From contig JAUVYE010000004.1 in NCBI GenBank assembly GCA_030603245.1, forward strand, positions 1 to 54,239: a DNA stretch of 54,239 bases, given 5' to 3'. The notes under the pieces are model-generated. The model searched no databases, had not been told where the DNA came from, and was given only the letters and a program-made list of their open reading frames with translations. The position numbers and the translations under genes are program-made. The DNA is from a bacterium (GTDB taxonomy: Bacteria; Patescibacteriota; Minisyncoccia; Minisyncoccales; DG-74-3). Positions 4,037 to 15,565 of this stretch are shown here, piece after piece (position 1 is the first letter of the stretch; each line of letters begins with the position of its first letter).

Positions 4037-4103
4037 GTAAAAATTCGAACAAAAGCTCGGACTTATACAATTACATACAAATATATGCAATTTTATACAA
4101 TTA

Positions 4104-4139
4104 GCTCCCCTGATGCAACGTTGTTAGAACCTGTTTTGT
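4104..4139 (+). repeat. Array element copy R6
   Basis: GCTCCCCTGATGCAACGTTGTTAGAACCTGTTTTGT. Confidence 0.85.
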
Positions 4140-4582: not shown

Positions 4583-4618
4583 GCTCCCCTGGCGGGACGA
4601 TGTTAGAACCTGTTTTAT
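4583..4618 (+). repeat. Array element copy R7
   Basis: GCTCCCCTGGCGGGACGATGTTAGAACCTGTTTTAT. Confidence 0.9.
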
Positions 4619-5397: not shown

Positions 5398-5447
5398 CAA
5401 TATATCCACAACTTAACTCCCTATTTTAATTTAATTTCCACACATTA

Positions 5448-5483
5448 GCTCCGGGGGCTGGACGATGTTAGAACCTGTTTTGC
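5448..5483 (+). repeat. Array element copy R8
   Basis: GCTCCGGGGGCTGGACGATGTTAGAACCTGTTTTGC. Confidence 0.9.
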
Positions 5484-6198: not shown

Positions 6199-6208
6199 CT
6201 TTTAAAAA

Positions 6209-6244
6209 ACTCCCCTGGCGGGACGATGTTAGAACCTGTTTCAT
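6209..6244 (+). repeat. Array element copy R9 (last recognisable copy)
   Basis: ACTCCCCTGGCGGGACGATGTTAGAACCTGTTTCAT. Confidence 0.88.
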
Positions 6245-6376: not shown

Positions 6377-6601
6377 ATGAAAGAACGAGAAGAAAAAATT
6401 ATTCGTACTATTTATCACGAAGAGACTAATCGTTTCTTCAAATCAATTGGGTTGTCTGAAAAATTAGAGAAGGGTGAACTCCAGTGCAATGTCTGTGGTG
6501 AAATAATAACAGTTACCAACTTTAGAGCAGTCACCCGTAAGGAGGGTGATTTGCTTTTCTGTTGTGATAAAGAATTATGTATGCAGAAATTTAGAACATG
6601 A
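6377..6601 (+). CDS. Small Cys-containing (zinc-ribbon-like) protein
   Basis: CNVCG...CCDKELC motifs; stop overlaps start of next ORF (ATGA). Confidence 0.65.
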   Translation: MKEREEKIIRTIYHEETNRFFKSIGLSEKLEKGELQCNVCGEIITVTNFRAVTRKEGDLLFCCDKELCMQKFRT

Positions 6602-7734
6602 ACACGAATTGGTTAAAATACATATTTGAATATGGACCATTAGCTTTAGCTATCCCTATATTCGAGTATTTTGGAACATCAGGTTTGATTTTCTTTATAC
6701 TTATAATAGTTATAATTCGTTTATTTGCGATAATACTAGATAAAGATCTTAATGAACGTTGGCGAGCGCGGTTCTACAAAATAATATATAAAATAAACGG
6801 AAGTAGTAATGCAGAGAAAAAATATATAGAAAATAATGCCTGTAGTCGTCTCAATCTTGCACGTCGCAAAATGCCATTCGAGAAAGAATATCTACCTAAG
6901 GCGATAAGAATAGAATGGTTTGGTGATAAAATAGGAAAAACTGCACAAATCAAAGAAAATGAAATTCTCATCCGTCTTGATCCAGCGGAAAGACAAGAAA
7001 AAAATATAGTTTTACTCGCCGATGCTTTAGTTAAAGAAACCTCTCTTATTGGGATTAGACATATTTTAAATGAAGCCTCAGAGGCTTCAATGGATTTAAA
7101 TCTCGTAAAAAGTCTACTTAAGGAAACTGGTGATAGAAAAATTTTGGATTGGTTCTTACGTAACGAATATCAAACAGCTTTAGGAAAAATAAATGGAATC
7201 GGGAAGTGGAACGAAGCGATTGTAGAAATTGATGAAAGGGGTCTATTTACCAGACTATTGCTTGTAGAACTAGAGTGGTTCTCTAAAAGAATTTCAGGCA
7301 GATCTTCTCCAGAATTTTTCAAAGAGGTTATAGGCTTGGTTAAATTCCTCTATAAAATAGCAACTAAGGTTTATAAACAAGATGTACCCTTAGAATATAC
7401 TTCACGAAATATAAAAATCGGCGTCATTCTTGTGGGAAAAACGAGTAAAATTCTTCGTAGAGGAATTGAACCTTTTTTGAAAGCGTTCATGTATCAAATA
7501 CAAAAACAGTTTACTTCGATATATGTTATTGAATTTGATAAAGAATTACTTGGTGTTTCAGACCCAAAAGCACATGAATACTTTATGAATTTAACGAAAA
7601 GCCTAACCAAGGAAATAGAGAAACGATTTGAAATTAAAAAGGACTTCGATCTTTCCTATGACTGCATTGACTCTATGGGTAGAAAAAGGCATGCAAAAAT
7701 TTGCCATTATATTCCTCACTATGCATTTTTTTAA
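6598..7734 (+). CDS. Membrane-anchored hypothetical protein, 378 aa
   Basis: N-terminal hydrophobic segments, long soluble domain; translationally coupled to 6377-6601. Confidence 0.75.
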   Translation: MNTNWLKYIFEYGPLALAIPIFEYFGTSGLIFFILIIVIIRLFAIILDKDLNERWRARFYKIIYKINGSSNAEKKYIENNACSRLNLARRKMPFEKEYLPKAIRIEWFGDKIGKTAQIKENEILIRLDPAERQEKNIVLLADALVKETSLIGIRHILNEASEASMDLNLVKSLLKETGDRKILDWFLRNEYQTALGKINGIGKWNEAIVEIDERGLFTRLLLVELEWFSKRISGRSSPEFFKEVIGLVKFLYKIATKVYKQDVPLEYTSRNIKIGVILVGKTSKILRRGIEPFLKAFMYQIQKQFTSIYVIEFDKELLGVSDPKAHEYFMNLTKSLTKEIEKRFEIKKDFDLSYDCIDSMGRKRHAKICHYIPHYAFF

Positions 7735-7772
7735 TAAAACAGCCTAGCGATGGGCTTTTAACTAATTCAAAA

Positions 7773-7799
7773 CAAAACAGGGTTTTTGACCCTGTTTTC
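7773..7799. terminator. Bidirectional terminator hairpin
   Basis: aaaacagggtttttgaccctgttttc. Confidence 0.7.
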
Positions 7800-7807
7800 G
7801 CTTCTGA

Positions 7808-7836
7808 GCTCCGGCAATCGGACTCGAACCTCCACC
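7808..7836 (-). pseudogene. tRNA 3'-end remnant (T-arm plus acceptor), possible attachment-site scar
   Basis: reverse complement GGTGGAGGTTCGAGTCCGATTGCCGGAGC contains TTCGAGT T-loop; no complete tRNA upstream; T-stem sides GGAGG/CCGAT do not pair fully. Confidence 0.6.
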
Positions 7837-7855
7837 TAATAAGCACTTGATATGT

Positions 7856-8470
7856 TTAATCTAATAGTTTTTCCAATTCAACAATATCAGAAATCAAATA
7901 GTCTGGATTAGCTGCTTCTAACATTTCTTTTGGTTTGTGGCCCCAAGATATTCCTATTGATACTACACCTCCTTTTTTTCCAGCTTTAATATCATGTGAC
8001 ATATCCCCTACGTATATGGTTTCTTCTGGCTGAAAATTATTCCTTTGAAGAATCTCTGTAATCACTTTTGCTTTATCAAGGATATTCCCATTTATTTCCT
8101 GAAAATAATCAAACACTCTATATCTTTTAGCGTCTGCGATTATTTTTTCCTGAGAACCAGAACTCATTATAACCAGTTTAATTCCTTTATCGTACAATCT
8201 TTTAAGCACATCTTTTACCCCTGGATATAATCCTGTGTCACCAGACGCATCAAGACCTTCTCTAAAAAGCTTAAGTATTTGATCTTTAGTACAATCTGGA
8301 AAATGTTTTTTCCAGAAATTCATATAGGGCAGAGAGAATTTCTTTCTATACTCTTTAAAAGACATGGGCTTAACACCCAATTTTTCAAAAACATACATTG
8401 TAGCCTTATAAATTGTTGTCAGGTCATCCATCAGAGTTCCTGACCAATCAAATAGAATATTTTTAATCAT
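7856..8470 (-). CDS. HAD-superfamily phosphatase (phosphoglycolate phosphatase-like)
   Basis: FDWSGTLMDD, VIMSSGS, YVGDMSHDIKAGKKGG. Confidence 0.85.
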   Translation of the reverse strand: MIKNILFDWSGTLMDDLTTIYKATMYVFEKLGVKPMSFKEYRKKFSLPYMNFWKKHFPDCTKDQILKLFREGLDASGDTGLYPGVKDVLKRLYDKGIKLVIMSSGSQEKIIADAKRYRVFDYFQEINGNILDKAKVITEILQRNNFQPEETIYVGDMSHDIKAGKKGGVVSIGISWGHKPKEMLEAANPDYLISDIVELEKLLD

Positions 8471-8554
8471 ATAAACTTAGTTTAACAGAAAAAAATTTAA
8501 CAACAAAAAAAGCCGTGTTGGTTTTAAAGACCACACGGGTTGGAACTATGGTGT

Positions 8555-8983
8555 TTACAATGCTTCCTCTTCTCCACCTTTTTCAAGAACCGTAAACTGT
8601 TCTATTAGTTTTAAGATTTCTCTGTACTCTGTGCCTTCAACGCCCTTGAGAGAAGCAATAAATGCTAATTGCTTAAGAATCCTTATTACTGAAGTATATA
8701 TTCCTTGTTCTAAATCAACTATTCCATGCTCATAATGTTCTATTTTCTCTTCCAAAGCAGGAATTTCCCTCTTAAGCCTTTCTAATTTTCTTTTGACACG
8801 TTCTTGCAAAAGAGGTATGAAGGGCTTTTTCCAAAAAGGAACAGAAGATAATTCTGAGCACAATTTTGAGAAAGTTTTTGTTGCTTTCTCGTGCTCCTTT
8901 GTCTTATTTACAAGCTCCTGTTTTAGTTGGTTTAGTTCATTTTTAAAAAGTTGCATTGTTTTTTCTATAAAATCGTCGGTCAC
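8555..8983 (-). CDS. Coiled-coil hypothetical protein
   Basis: 142 aa, charged heptad-rich. Confidence 0.65.
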   Translation of the reverse strand: MTDDFIEKTMQLFKNELNQLKQELVNKTKEHEKATKTFSKLCSELSSVPFWKKPFIPLLQERVKRKLERLKREIPALEEKIEHYEHGIVDLEQGIYTSVIRILKQLAFIASLKGVEGTEYREILKLIEQFTVLEKGGEEEAL

Positions 8984-9091
8984 CCATTCACACCTTCTTT
9001 TTTTTAATGAACCTTTAATTTCTTTCTACCACTCAAACATAAAAAAAACAAGCCCCATAGAGCTTGTCTTTAAAATATTTAAAAAAATAAA

Positions 9092-9808
9092 TTATAATCC
9101 GATAAATTCTTTGATTTTACTAACAGGAATAGAAACAACTTTTCCGTCCTTATTAATCTGATTTAAACCTACAATATTAGCATAAATATCAAATAACGGA
9201 CTTCCGGCTAAAGTGTTTTGTTCAAAAATATTAGTTTCAATTAAATTATCATCAAAACTTTTAACAATTCCCTGGTTAACTGTTTTTTTAAGCCCTGCTT
9301 TTTCAAACACTATTCCCATTAAAAAAACTCTTTGGCCTAATTTAATTTTTCCAAAATCAGCAAAACTAAGAGTTGGTAAATTAGATTTTTCAACTTTGAT
9401 TAAGGCTAAGTTTTCTTTGACGTCTCTTTTTAAAATCTGAAAATCAGCCAATTCTTCATCCACAAAAAAACTAAAAACAGAACCTTTCGGAACCAAATCA
9501 TTCAAAGTCACAAAAAGTCCGTCTGAAGTAACAATAAGGCCTGAACCTTGTAAAATAATGCCATCAACCGTCTGAGTTCTAACCCCAACTATTGTGTTTT
9601 CTACTCTCTCAATTGCATCTTGAAGAGCAGTATTTTCAGTAACTGTAATTTCTTTTATTTCAGTCACATAAATTGGGGTTTGTTCTAATCGATATTCAGA
9701 AAAAAGAGGTTTTTCCACAAAATAGGGCCAGAGAATCTGATCAGCAAAAATACCACCCGCTATTCCAAAAATAAAAAGAAAAAGAATTTTATAGATTTTT
9801 TTAAACAT
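9092..9808 (-). CDS. Trypsin-like (HtrA-type) domain protein, apparently catalytically dead
   Basis: Fold motifs resemble HtrA but His/Asp/Ser positions replaced (TLNDLV, ENLALIKVE, TLAGSPL). Confidence 0.7.
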   Translation of the reverse strand: MFKKIYKILFLFIFGIAGGIFADQILWPYFVEKPLFSEYRLEQTPIYVTEIKEITVTENTALQDAIERVENTIVGVRTQTVDGIILQGSGLIVTSDGLFVTLNDLVPKGSVFSFFVDEELADFQILKRDVKENLALIKVEKSNLPTLSFADFGKIKLGQRVFLMGIVFEKAGLKKTVNQGIVKSFDDNLIETNIFEQNTLAGSPLFDIYANIVGLNQINKDGKVVSIPVSKIKEFIGL

Positions 9809-14578: not shown

Positions 14579-15565
14579 TTAAAATATTTTCTTGGCCTCA
14601 TCCCAGATTGCAGGCCTGTTTTGTTTCTCTTTCATCCAATACCACCATTCAGAACCCCAGAAATAAAACTCTTTTAATCCAGTCTTCTTAGCAAATTCAA
14701 TATTTGTTTTAAATTGTTCTAAATTCATTGTTTTTTCTTGCTCTTCCATTGGTGAATCGTAAAGCAACTTAGGCCCCCAGGGTTCAGCTTGCAATTCCAC
14801 ACAAATTACCTCTTTATCAAACAGTTTATTAATAATCTGAGCTTTTCTTGCATAAAAAATTGGAGGGAAAGGATAGTGAATATAGAATCCTAACTGATGA
14901 AACCAGGCCTTTTTATACATTGTTGTGCCAACTATATCTCCAAAAATAGCTGCCTGAATCCAAAAAGACCCTTCGCCAGAATCAGAAATTAAAACTCTGT
15001 CTTTTTTGTCTAAAGATTTAACTAAATCTATTTCTTTTTTCAAAAAACCTTTGTCAACCCATTGGCAATCTCCAAAAGGGAAAAACGGTTCATTTTCTAC
15101 TTGCCAATACTTAATGACTGGAGAATCTTTATACCTTAAAACAATATTCTCGAGCATTTTTAAAATTTCTTCTTGCTGCTCTTGTTTGCTTTTACTTTTA
15201 GCCCATTCTGGAACATGGCATTCTGGCCAGCGTGGAGTTTTCATTCCTATGGCTAAAACAAGCTTGACTCCTTTTTCCTCTGCTTTTTCTATTTGCCAGT
15301 CTAAATCCTGAAAATTAAATTGGTTTTCCTGAGGTTCAATTAAATCCCAATGAGCAGCTAATTTGATGTTCTTAACATTCAAATCATCAAGTAGAGCTAA
15401 ATAGTTCTCTTTCCAATCCAAGCCCAATGATTGAGAATGTTTTTGAGAAAAATTAACTCCCCAAGCAATTTTATCTGCTTGAGGAACACTTCCAATAAAA
15501 AACAAACTAAAAAACAGTATAAGTAAAAACAATAACCCAAACATAATTTTTTTTAGGTTTTTCAC
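14579..15565 (-). CDS. TIM-barrel glycoside hydrolase-like protein
   Basis: WDLIEPQ, KYWQVENEPF, VICVELQAEPW. Confidence 0.75.
   Translation of the reverse strand: MKNLKKIMFGLLFLLILFFSLFFIGSVPQADKIAWGVNFSQKHSQSLGLDWKENYLALLDDLNVKNIKLAAHWDLIEPQENQFNFQDLDWQIEKAEEKGVKLVLAIGMKTPRWPECHVPEWAKSKSKQEQQEEILKMLENIVLRYKDSPVIKYWQVENEPFFPFGDCQWVDKGFLKKEIDLVKSLDKKDRVLISDSGEGSFWIQAAIFGDIVGTTMYKKAWFHQLGFYIHYPFPPIFYARKAQIINKLFDKEVICVELQAEPWGPKLLYDSPMEEQEKTMNLEQFKTNIEFAKKTGLKEFYFWGSEWWYWMKEKQNRPAIWDEAKKIF

Follow-up and report, generated by a model that had tools for sequence, protein, structure and literature searches.

A tRNA-Asn 3' end in a Parcubacteria cassette array as a probable attachment-site scar

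The analyzed window, a stretch of 54,239 nucleotides, contains at positions 7808-7830 (minus strand) the 3' end of a tRNA-Asn gene that lacks a 5' half and passes into other DNA at the T-loop. This chimeric sequence is homologous to the elements of a cassette array in the same window, elements of this kind keep a fixed orientation behind tRNAs, and junctions of its class recur in a different family beside the same backbone gene. With a probability of about 70%, we regard it as the left attachment (att) junction of a mobile unit that targets tRNA-Asn and belongs to a tRNA-anchored cassette array built up by serial insertion, similar to additive genomic islands. Because the elements in the window belong to the same series, the scar is read as one element of an additive array of mostly single-gene cassettes. 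The genome comprises 548 kb in 26 contigs and is 98% complete; the window is contig C5.

The tRNA-Asn 3' end and its genomic surroundings

Read on the minus strand from 7830 to 7808, the scar consists of the T-loop GGTTCGAGTCC, the 3' T-strand CCGAT, the acceptor 3' strand TGCCGGA, G73 and a C; the plus-strand letters of this tRNA-like block are GCTCCGGCAATCGGACTCGAACC. The minus-strand letters that the preliminary description had quoted for 7850-7808 are indeed present there. The right arm of the junction (7831-7852, minus strand; plus strand TCCACCTAATAAGCACTTGATA) carries TCCACCTAATAAGCAC... and is not complementary to the 3' strand of the T-stem. Only two of five positions pair between ATCGG and CCTCC, compared with mostly five of five in real tRNA-Asn genes of relatives, in agreement with the mismatched T-stem halves reported earlier. 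The sequence had been described as looking like a chimera of two different tRNAs. The joint at the T-loop stands, and the left half of the chimera, GGTGGAGG, may derive from a second tRNA or from a mobile-unit arm; likewise, 7831-7852 is either such an arm or what remains, after decay, of a tRNA's variable loop and 5' T-strand. Immediately to the left of the scar is an intrinsic-terminator-like hairpin (7774-7798, minus strand), a feature also observed at other cassette ends.

The similarity to tRNA-Asn was quantified with the pattern GCTCC-N7-GGACTCGAACC, which spans 23 bp with 16 fixed bases. It occurs twice in the 548-kb genome, once in the scar and once in the real tRNA-Asn, against about 3e-4 matches expected by chance according to our arithmetic. 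The reversed pattern had no match in any of the genomes searched, and these controls rule out chance similarity. The tRNA-Asn(GTT) gene of contig C21 ends with …GGTTCGAGTCCTACCCGCGGAGC and the scar with …GGTTCGAGTCCGATTGCCGGAGC. The two have the T-loop, G73 and the trailing C in common, but T-strand and acceptor differ. Because the left arm TGCCGGA of the scar mismatches CCGCGGA of the C21 gene, the unit or its target came from elsewhere.

ARAGORN detected no tRNA at 7808-7830, nor any at the scar with introns as long as 3 kb allowed in the region 7500-9500, and at the gathering score Rfam reported neither a tRNA nor a group I intron at the scar. Permissive cmsearch of the whole genome gave 7809-7891 (minus strand) 16.1 bits, compared to a cut-off of 29, and the putative 5' half of this match would fall inside the 3' end of the coding sequence of a neighboring gene for a HAD-superfamily hydrolase. 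The 5' acceptor partner, TCCGGC(A), is absent from the minus strand of 7801-9600. Together, ARAGORN with and without introns, Rfam and the search for the acceptor partner rule out a complete non-canonical or intron-bearing tRNA, the presence of which would have counted against the initial proposal, and leave the 3' half-tRNA without a 5' half that it had described. In relatives, group I introns were observed to interrupt tRNA-Asn genes (L206 1286-1990, L220 1189-1523 and L224 65-391; Rfam 69-96 bits), in one case within the same family, and therefore a standard tRNA search misses these genes.

Between the preceding array element at 6208 and the scar lie cassette genes for proteins of 74 and 378 aa (6377-7734, plus strand), the longer of which has no Pfam match. 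To the right follow, all on the minus strand, the HAD-superfamily hydrolase gene (7856-8470), an ORF for a 142-aa coiled-coil protein (8555-8983) and an S1C-type protease gene (9092-9808), the first conserved backbone gene, which is found together with ClpB in nearly all relatives. The region downstream of ClpB-S1C was compared in 11 relatives, some of which were readable only to a nearby contig end. The HAD gene was absent at this locus from all 11, and a homologue of the 142-aa ORF was found near it in G002 only. Therefore, conserved synteny begins near 9092 and the scar lies within the variable region; the HAD gene is probably accessory cargo and part of the array. The earlier placement of the transition from accessory to housekeeping genes exactly at the scar thus has to be shifted. 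A remnant of this kind with no island nearby, which would have spoken against a link to the island, was not seen at any of the 11 neighboring loci. At its left end, the window is identical over positions 1-141 to the start of C21, another array contig, which indicates that the assembly was interrupted within a repeated cassette and that the array extends past the window.

Array elements in the window, behind intact tRNAs and in relatives

The elements at 1-6.3 kb have as left arm the antisense 3' end of tRNA-Asn, and near the T-loop these tRNA-Asn-like left arms continue into a shared arm, GATGTTAGAACCTGTTTTAT. All are on the plus strand. They are located at 170-206 (tRNA-Asn-like left arm GCTCCTCTGG.. 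and arm GTTAGAACCTGTTTTAT), 1245-1280 and 5447-5483 (both with left arm GCTCCGGGGGCTGGAC), 1611-1662 and 2011-2062 (two copies of type C, GCTCCCCCTATTGGACGCGTTCAGAAC, which translates as LDAFRTIDWRKIKEKL), 2088-2122 (degenerate), 2566-2627 (type B, GCTCCGGGGATGGTACAATATTAGAACTTGG, which translates as YNIRTWFWENLPAIES), 4103-4139, 4583-4618 (left arm GCTCCCCTGGCGGGAC, as in contig C21) and 6208-6244, the element preceding the last cassette left of the scar. The sequence similarity with the array elements that had been pointed out for the scar was confirmed: each of them consists of a tRNA 3' end to which other DNA is attached at the T-loop. The arm GCTCCCCTGGCGGGAC can be read as T-strand CCCGC, acceptor CAGGGGA, G and C, a regular tRNA-Asn end. 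Since this end is unlike that of the tRNA-Asn in C21, its sequence probably stems from another species.

Arrays in this genome are anchored at intact genes for tRNA-Asn (C21), tRNA-His (C14) and tRNA-Asp (C4). In C21, elements of the window type lead up to the intact tRNA-Asn; the C14 elements resemble tRNA-His and sit behind it, and the same is true for one C4 element and tRNA-Asp. In relatives, arrays were found behind tRNA-Asn, tRNA-Gln(CTG) and tRNA-His. Where elements and a tRNA shared a locus, the elements were oriented antisense to the tRNA in 35 of 35 cases and located on its 3' side in 34 of 35. The tRNA nearest to 33 close elements was Asn for 15, Gln(CTG) for 13, His for four and Asp for one. 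Left arms agreed with their own tRNA at 4.97 of seven bases, compared with 4.01 for random tRNAs (sd 0.15; highest value in 2000 draws, 4.55). As in additive islands, copies of tRNA 3' ends thus lie between accessory genes, and at C21, C14, C4 and in relatives the array is located 3' of an intact tRNA and runs in one orientation; the scar's own locus has no intact tRNA.

A 20-bp signature, the element core, makes the array recognizable in 24 of 60 related genomes, with no match for the reversed control. In an even sample of the phylum it was found in only 8 of 380 genomes, and therefore it is concentrated in this order. The signature-bearing records of the named genome collection are almost all from Patescibacteria/Parcubacteria, the groups including Nealsonbacteria, Wildermuthbacteria, Colwellbacteria and Moraniibacteriota, which marks the organism as Parcubacterium-like. 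Among the genomes available, one per species, G001, a member of the same genus, carries a different set of cassettes behind its tRNA-Asn.

The scar belongs to class D, the variant with an intact T-loop. Locus L192, from a different family, has three class D junctions (2894, 6368 and 9508) between cassette-like genes, all with imperfectly paired T-strands like those of the scar, and the junction at 9508 directly adjoins the S1C protease gene that also opens the backbone in the window. Further class D junctions are present at L061, L084, L177, L218, L219, L235 and L236, and L243 contains a lone remnant that differs from the scar by one base over the 23-bp block. In G084, two junctions are identical over this block to the real tRNA-Asn of the genome (L218, L232 and L233), which is the pattern expected of att direct repeats. 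The preliminary description had suggested that the remnant may be the att scar that bounds the island. We retain the attachment-site scar as the best reading and abandon the single island boundary, as the same class recurs between cassettes, three times in L192 alone.

Class D junctions from several genera (L061, L177, L192 2894 and L236 7458) share the right arm CCTCTCGGTCGCCCTAACG...ATAGGCGTCTCGGTC, which includes a compensated hairpin and may be either an additional att arm or a tRNA-like RNA. The flank that precedes element left arms on their left side is conserved and consists of a hairpin CTCGGTC-N3-TCGAACCGAG with a variable stem, followed by CACTAGCCT-GCTCC (L076 7220-7305, L177, L183, L192, L218 and L231), and farther left, beyond this hairpin, a second inverted repeat GGTTCGA...TCGAACC was observed. 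The flank …CTCGGTCGCTCGAACCGAG-CACTAGCCT-GCTCC is common to some elements and to real tRNA-Asn 3' ends across genera, including G001, and probably forms the units' other arm.

Proposed serial insertion at tRNA-Asn and competing explanations

According to the att-scar reading, recombination between a mobile unit and a tRNA-Asn gene would have taken place within the T-loop or close to it, and the tRNA target suggests site-specific recombination by a tyrosine recombinase. The new 3' end brought by the incoming unit would restore the tRNA, and the old 3' end would be left at the far junction, where it would remain, together with the T-loop (GCTCC...GGACTCGAACC), linked to the arm contributed by the unit itself. 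Successive insertions at tRNA 3' ends would then generate an array of junctions in the same orientation, one before every unit. The order of these events, as well as the past presence or loss of a tRNA body at the scar locus, is what we infer from the present arrangement. Several observations speak against this reading. Serial insertion predicts an intact tRNA-Asn to the right of the scar, yet none is present, so that it must have been lost or moved. No integrase is linked to any array read here, and the comparison of relatives yielded no empty site. In addition, many left arms mismatch the resident tRNA; the units therefore probably came from other species or arose by recombination between elements. 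For a model of simple accretion, this mismatch poses the greatest problem.

A further difficulty is that the right arm, TAGGT-GGAGG, resembles tRNA-Asn in its variable loop and 5' T-strand, a similarity that would fit a chimera of two tRNAs. Accordingly, the scar could have formed when the non-matching 3' end of a unit was attached to a second tRNA-Asn gene, of which T-strand GGAGG and variable loop TAGGT would be left; this redundant tRNA would have been killed by the insertion, and its 5' half would have decayed. Such an origin corresponds to the two joined tRNAs of the preliminary description in the literal sense. GGAGG/CCTCC is the T-stem of a real tRNA-Asn in a relative (L213), and the loss would have been tolerable because C21 holds another tRNA-Asn copy. 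However, neither an anticodon arm nor an acceptor partner was found within 1.8 kb upstream, and other class D arms (L084, L235, ...GGAAGTGAAGGTTTAGAGG) are about as similar to tRNA without being tRNA. We therefore consider the second tRNA body an unlikely origin of the right arm.

It is very improbable that the scar is a decayed tRNA-Asn pseudogene that originated by segmental duplication and is unrelated to mobility. A tRNA-Asn 3' sequence with a missing 5' half would be expected of such a pseudogene, but acceptor and T-strand are unlike those of the resident tRNA-Asn and the break is exactly at the T-loop. Furthermore, the same class occurs in other families, always in one orientation, and no homologous flanks common to the scar and a tRNA-Asn locus were seen. 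Least probable of all is an integron-like system, with the elements as attC-type sites, the scar as attI or a degenerate attC, and an integron integrase shuffling the cassettes: tandem single-gene cassettes and a repeated site are typical of integron arrays, and CALIN integrons also lack the integrase, but here the sites are tRNA 3' ends located behind tRNAs, they do not fold into attC hairpins (DNA-fold z of +0.22 and -1.25), and the sole recombinase of this class in the genome is not an integron integrase (89 bits versus the TIGR02249 cut-off of 265), so that folding and integrase class rule out an attC identity.

Gene capture behind tRNA genes is a known style, and the serial att-junction reading has its closest counterpart in the additive flexible genomic island fGI-2 of Methylophilaceae, in which the repeats are the last 20 nt of tRNA-Lys (PMC10872708). 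Both systems contain variable accessory genes, mostly of unknown function, with tRNA 3'-end repeats between them, and the present arrays presumably grew, as fGI-2 did, by repeated insertion at one site. In contrast to fGI-2, the repeats described here continue at the T-loop into another conserved arm, which is often coding, they involve several isoacceptors (Asn, Gln and His) across an order of Parcubacteria, the units are mostly single genes, and no recombinase is linked. Integrative elements are known to leave fragments of tRNA genes (PMC9897764, citing Williams 2002), and a 3' fragment at the distal junction is shared with them; however, in the arrays many fragments are found in series, with a chimeric T-stem and a 3' half unlike the resident tRNA. 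Tycheposons are likewise tRNA-anchored cargo islands in streamlined genomes, but they encode a XerD-type recombinase and are tRNA-bounded units of 4-200 kb (PMC10872708), whereas no recombinase was linked to the arrays read here and their units mostly measure 0.4-1.5 kb. In the open-access literature searched, which represents part of all literature, we found no description of such arrays in Parcubacteria. The arrays are a candidate route by which the very small, presumably host-dependent genomes of Parcubacteria gain and keep single accessory genes.

Recombinases and coding tails at the att core

The genome encodes a single Phage_integrase-family protein (contig C22), which is Xer-like and not linked to the arrays. 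Relatives also encode about one protein of this family each, and where second recombinase copies occur, no array element of this type is nearby.

Several types of elements translate through the att core. With tblastn, the tail (LRI)VDNVRTIIQRQNEYIYIPDL, followed by a stop codon, was detected in 81 of 290 relatives, with more than 100 occurrences in total. It starts at the att core and is an orphan in every genome read (L092, L127-L155 and others); other tails that start at the att core are DDVRTYFMTTKEHFEIPVL, DDFRTLDWGKVYKHPNIVLNQLRELAG and DAFRTLDWEKIKEEL. Among 25 copies of the tail, 1019, 477 and 1927 differences were counted at codon positions 1, 2 and 3, respectively, and single-base codon differences comprised 1182 synonymous and 449 non-synonymous changes. 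Because of this bias, we conclude that the tail evolved as a coding sequence. Among the more than 100 tails in the 290 relatives, none was part of a gene-length frame with a recognizable body.

It is conceivable, if on the whole doubtful, that the elements are split-gene att sites. The att core of a Parcubacteria unit would then lie in the 3' end of a gene, possibly that of an integrase, and would mimic the antisense 3' end of a tRNA. Integration would sever the tail (...DNVRTIIQRQNEYIYIPDL and stop), which would be left behind as an element and would feed order-wide arrays mobilized in trans. Such units would be a bacterial counterpart of the suicidal integrases of the SSV1 type, which are reported only from archaea (PMC8371274). 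In both, the target is a tRNA and coding sequence runs across the att core; if this sequence is part of a gene here as well, integration would cut it in two. In the arrays, however, the coding sequence observed is confined to a C-terminal tail of some 25 aa, and the searches performed yielded no gene body. If the tail gene were the integrase of the unit, integration would split its own gene, as in the archaeal suicidal integrases (PMC8371274). The coding tail over the att core thus raises a testable question concerning its parent protein and self-splitting upon integration.

Searches for the tail gene in a phage collection yielded no match, and a pattern search of IMG/VR yielded chance matches or matches to structural proteins, plus one viral contig, L096. 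This contig ends, at 14680-14740, in an array element with a tRNA-Asn-like left arm, and it is possibly an assembly chimera or a phage that carries an element.
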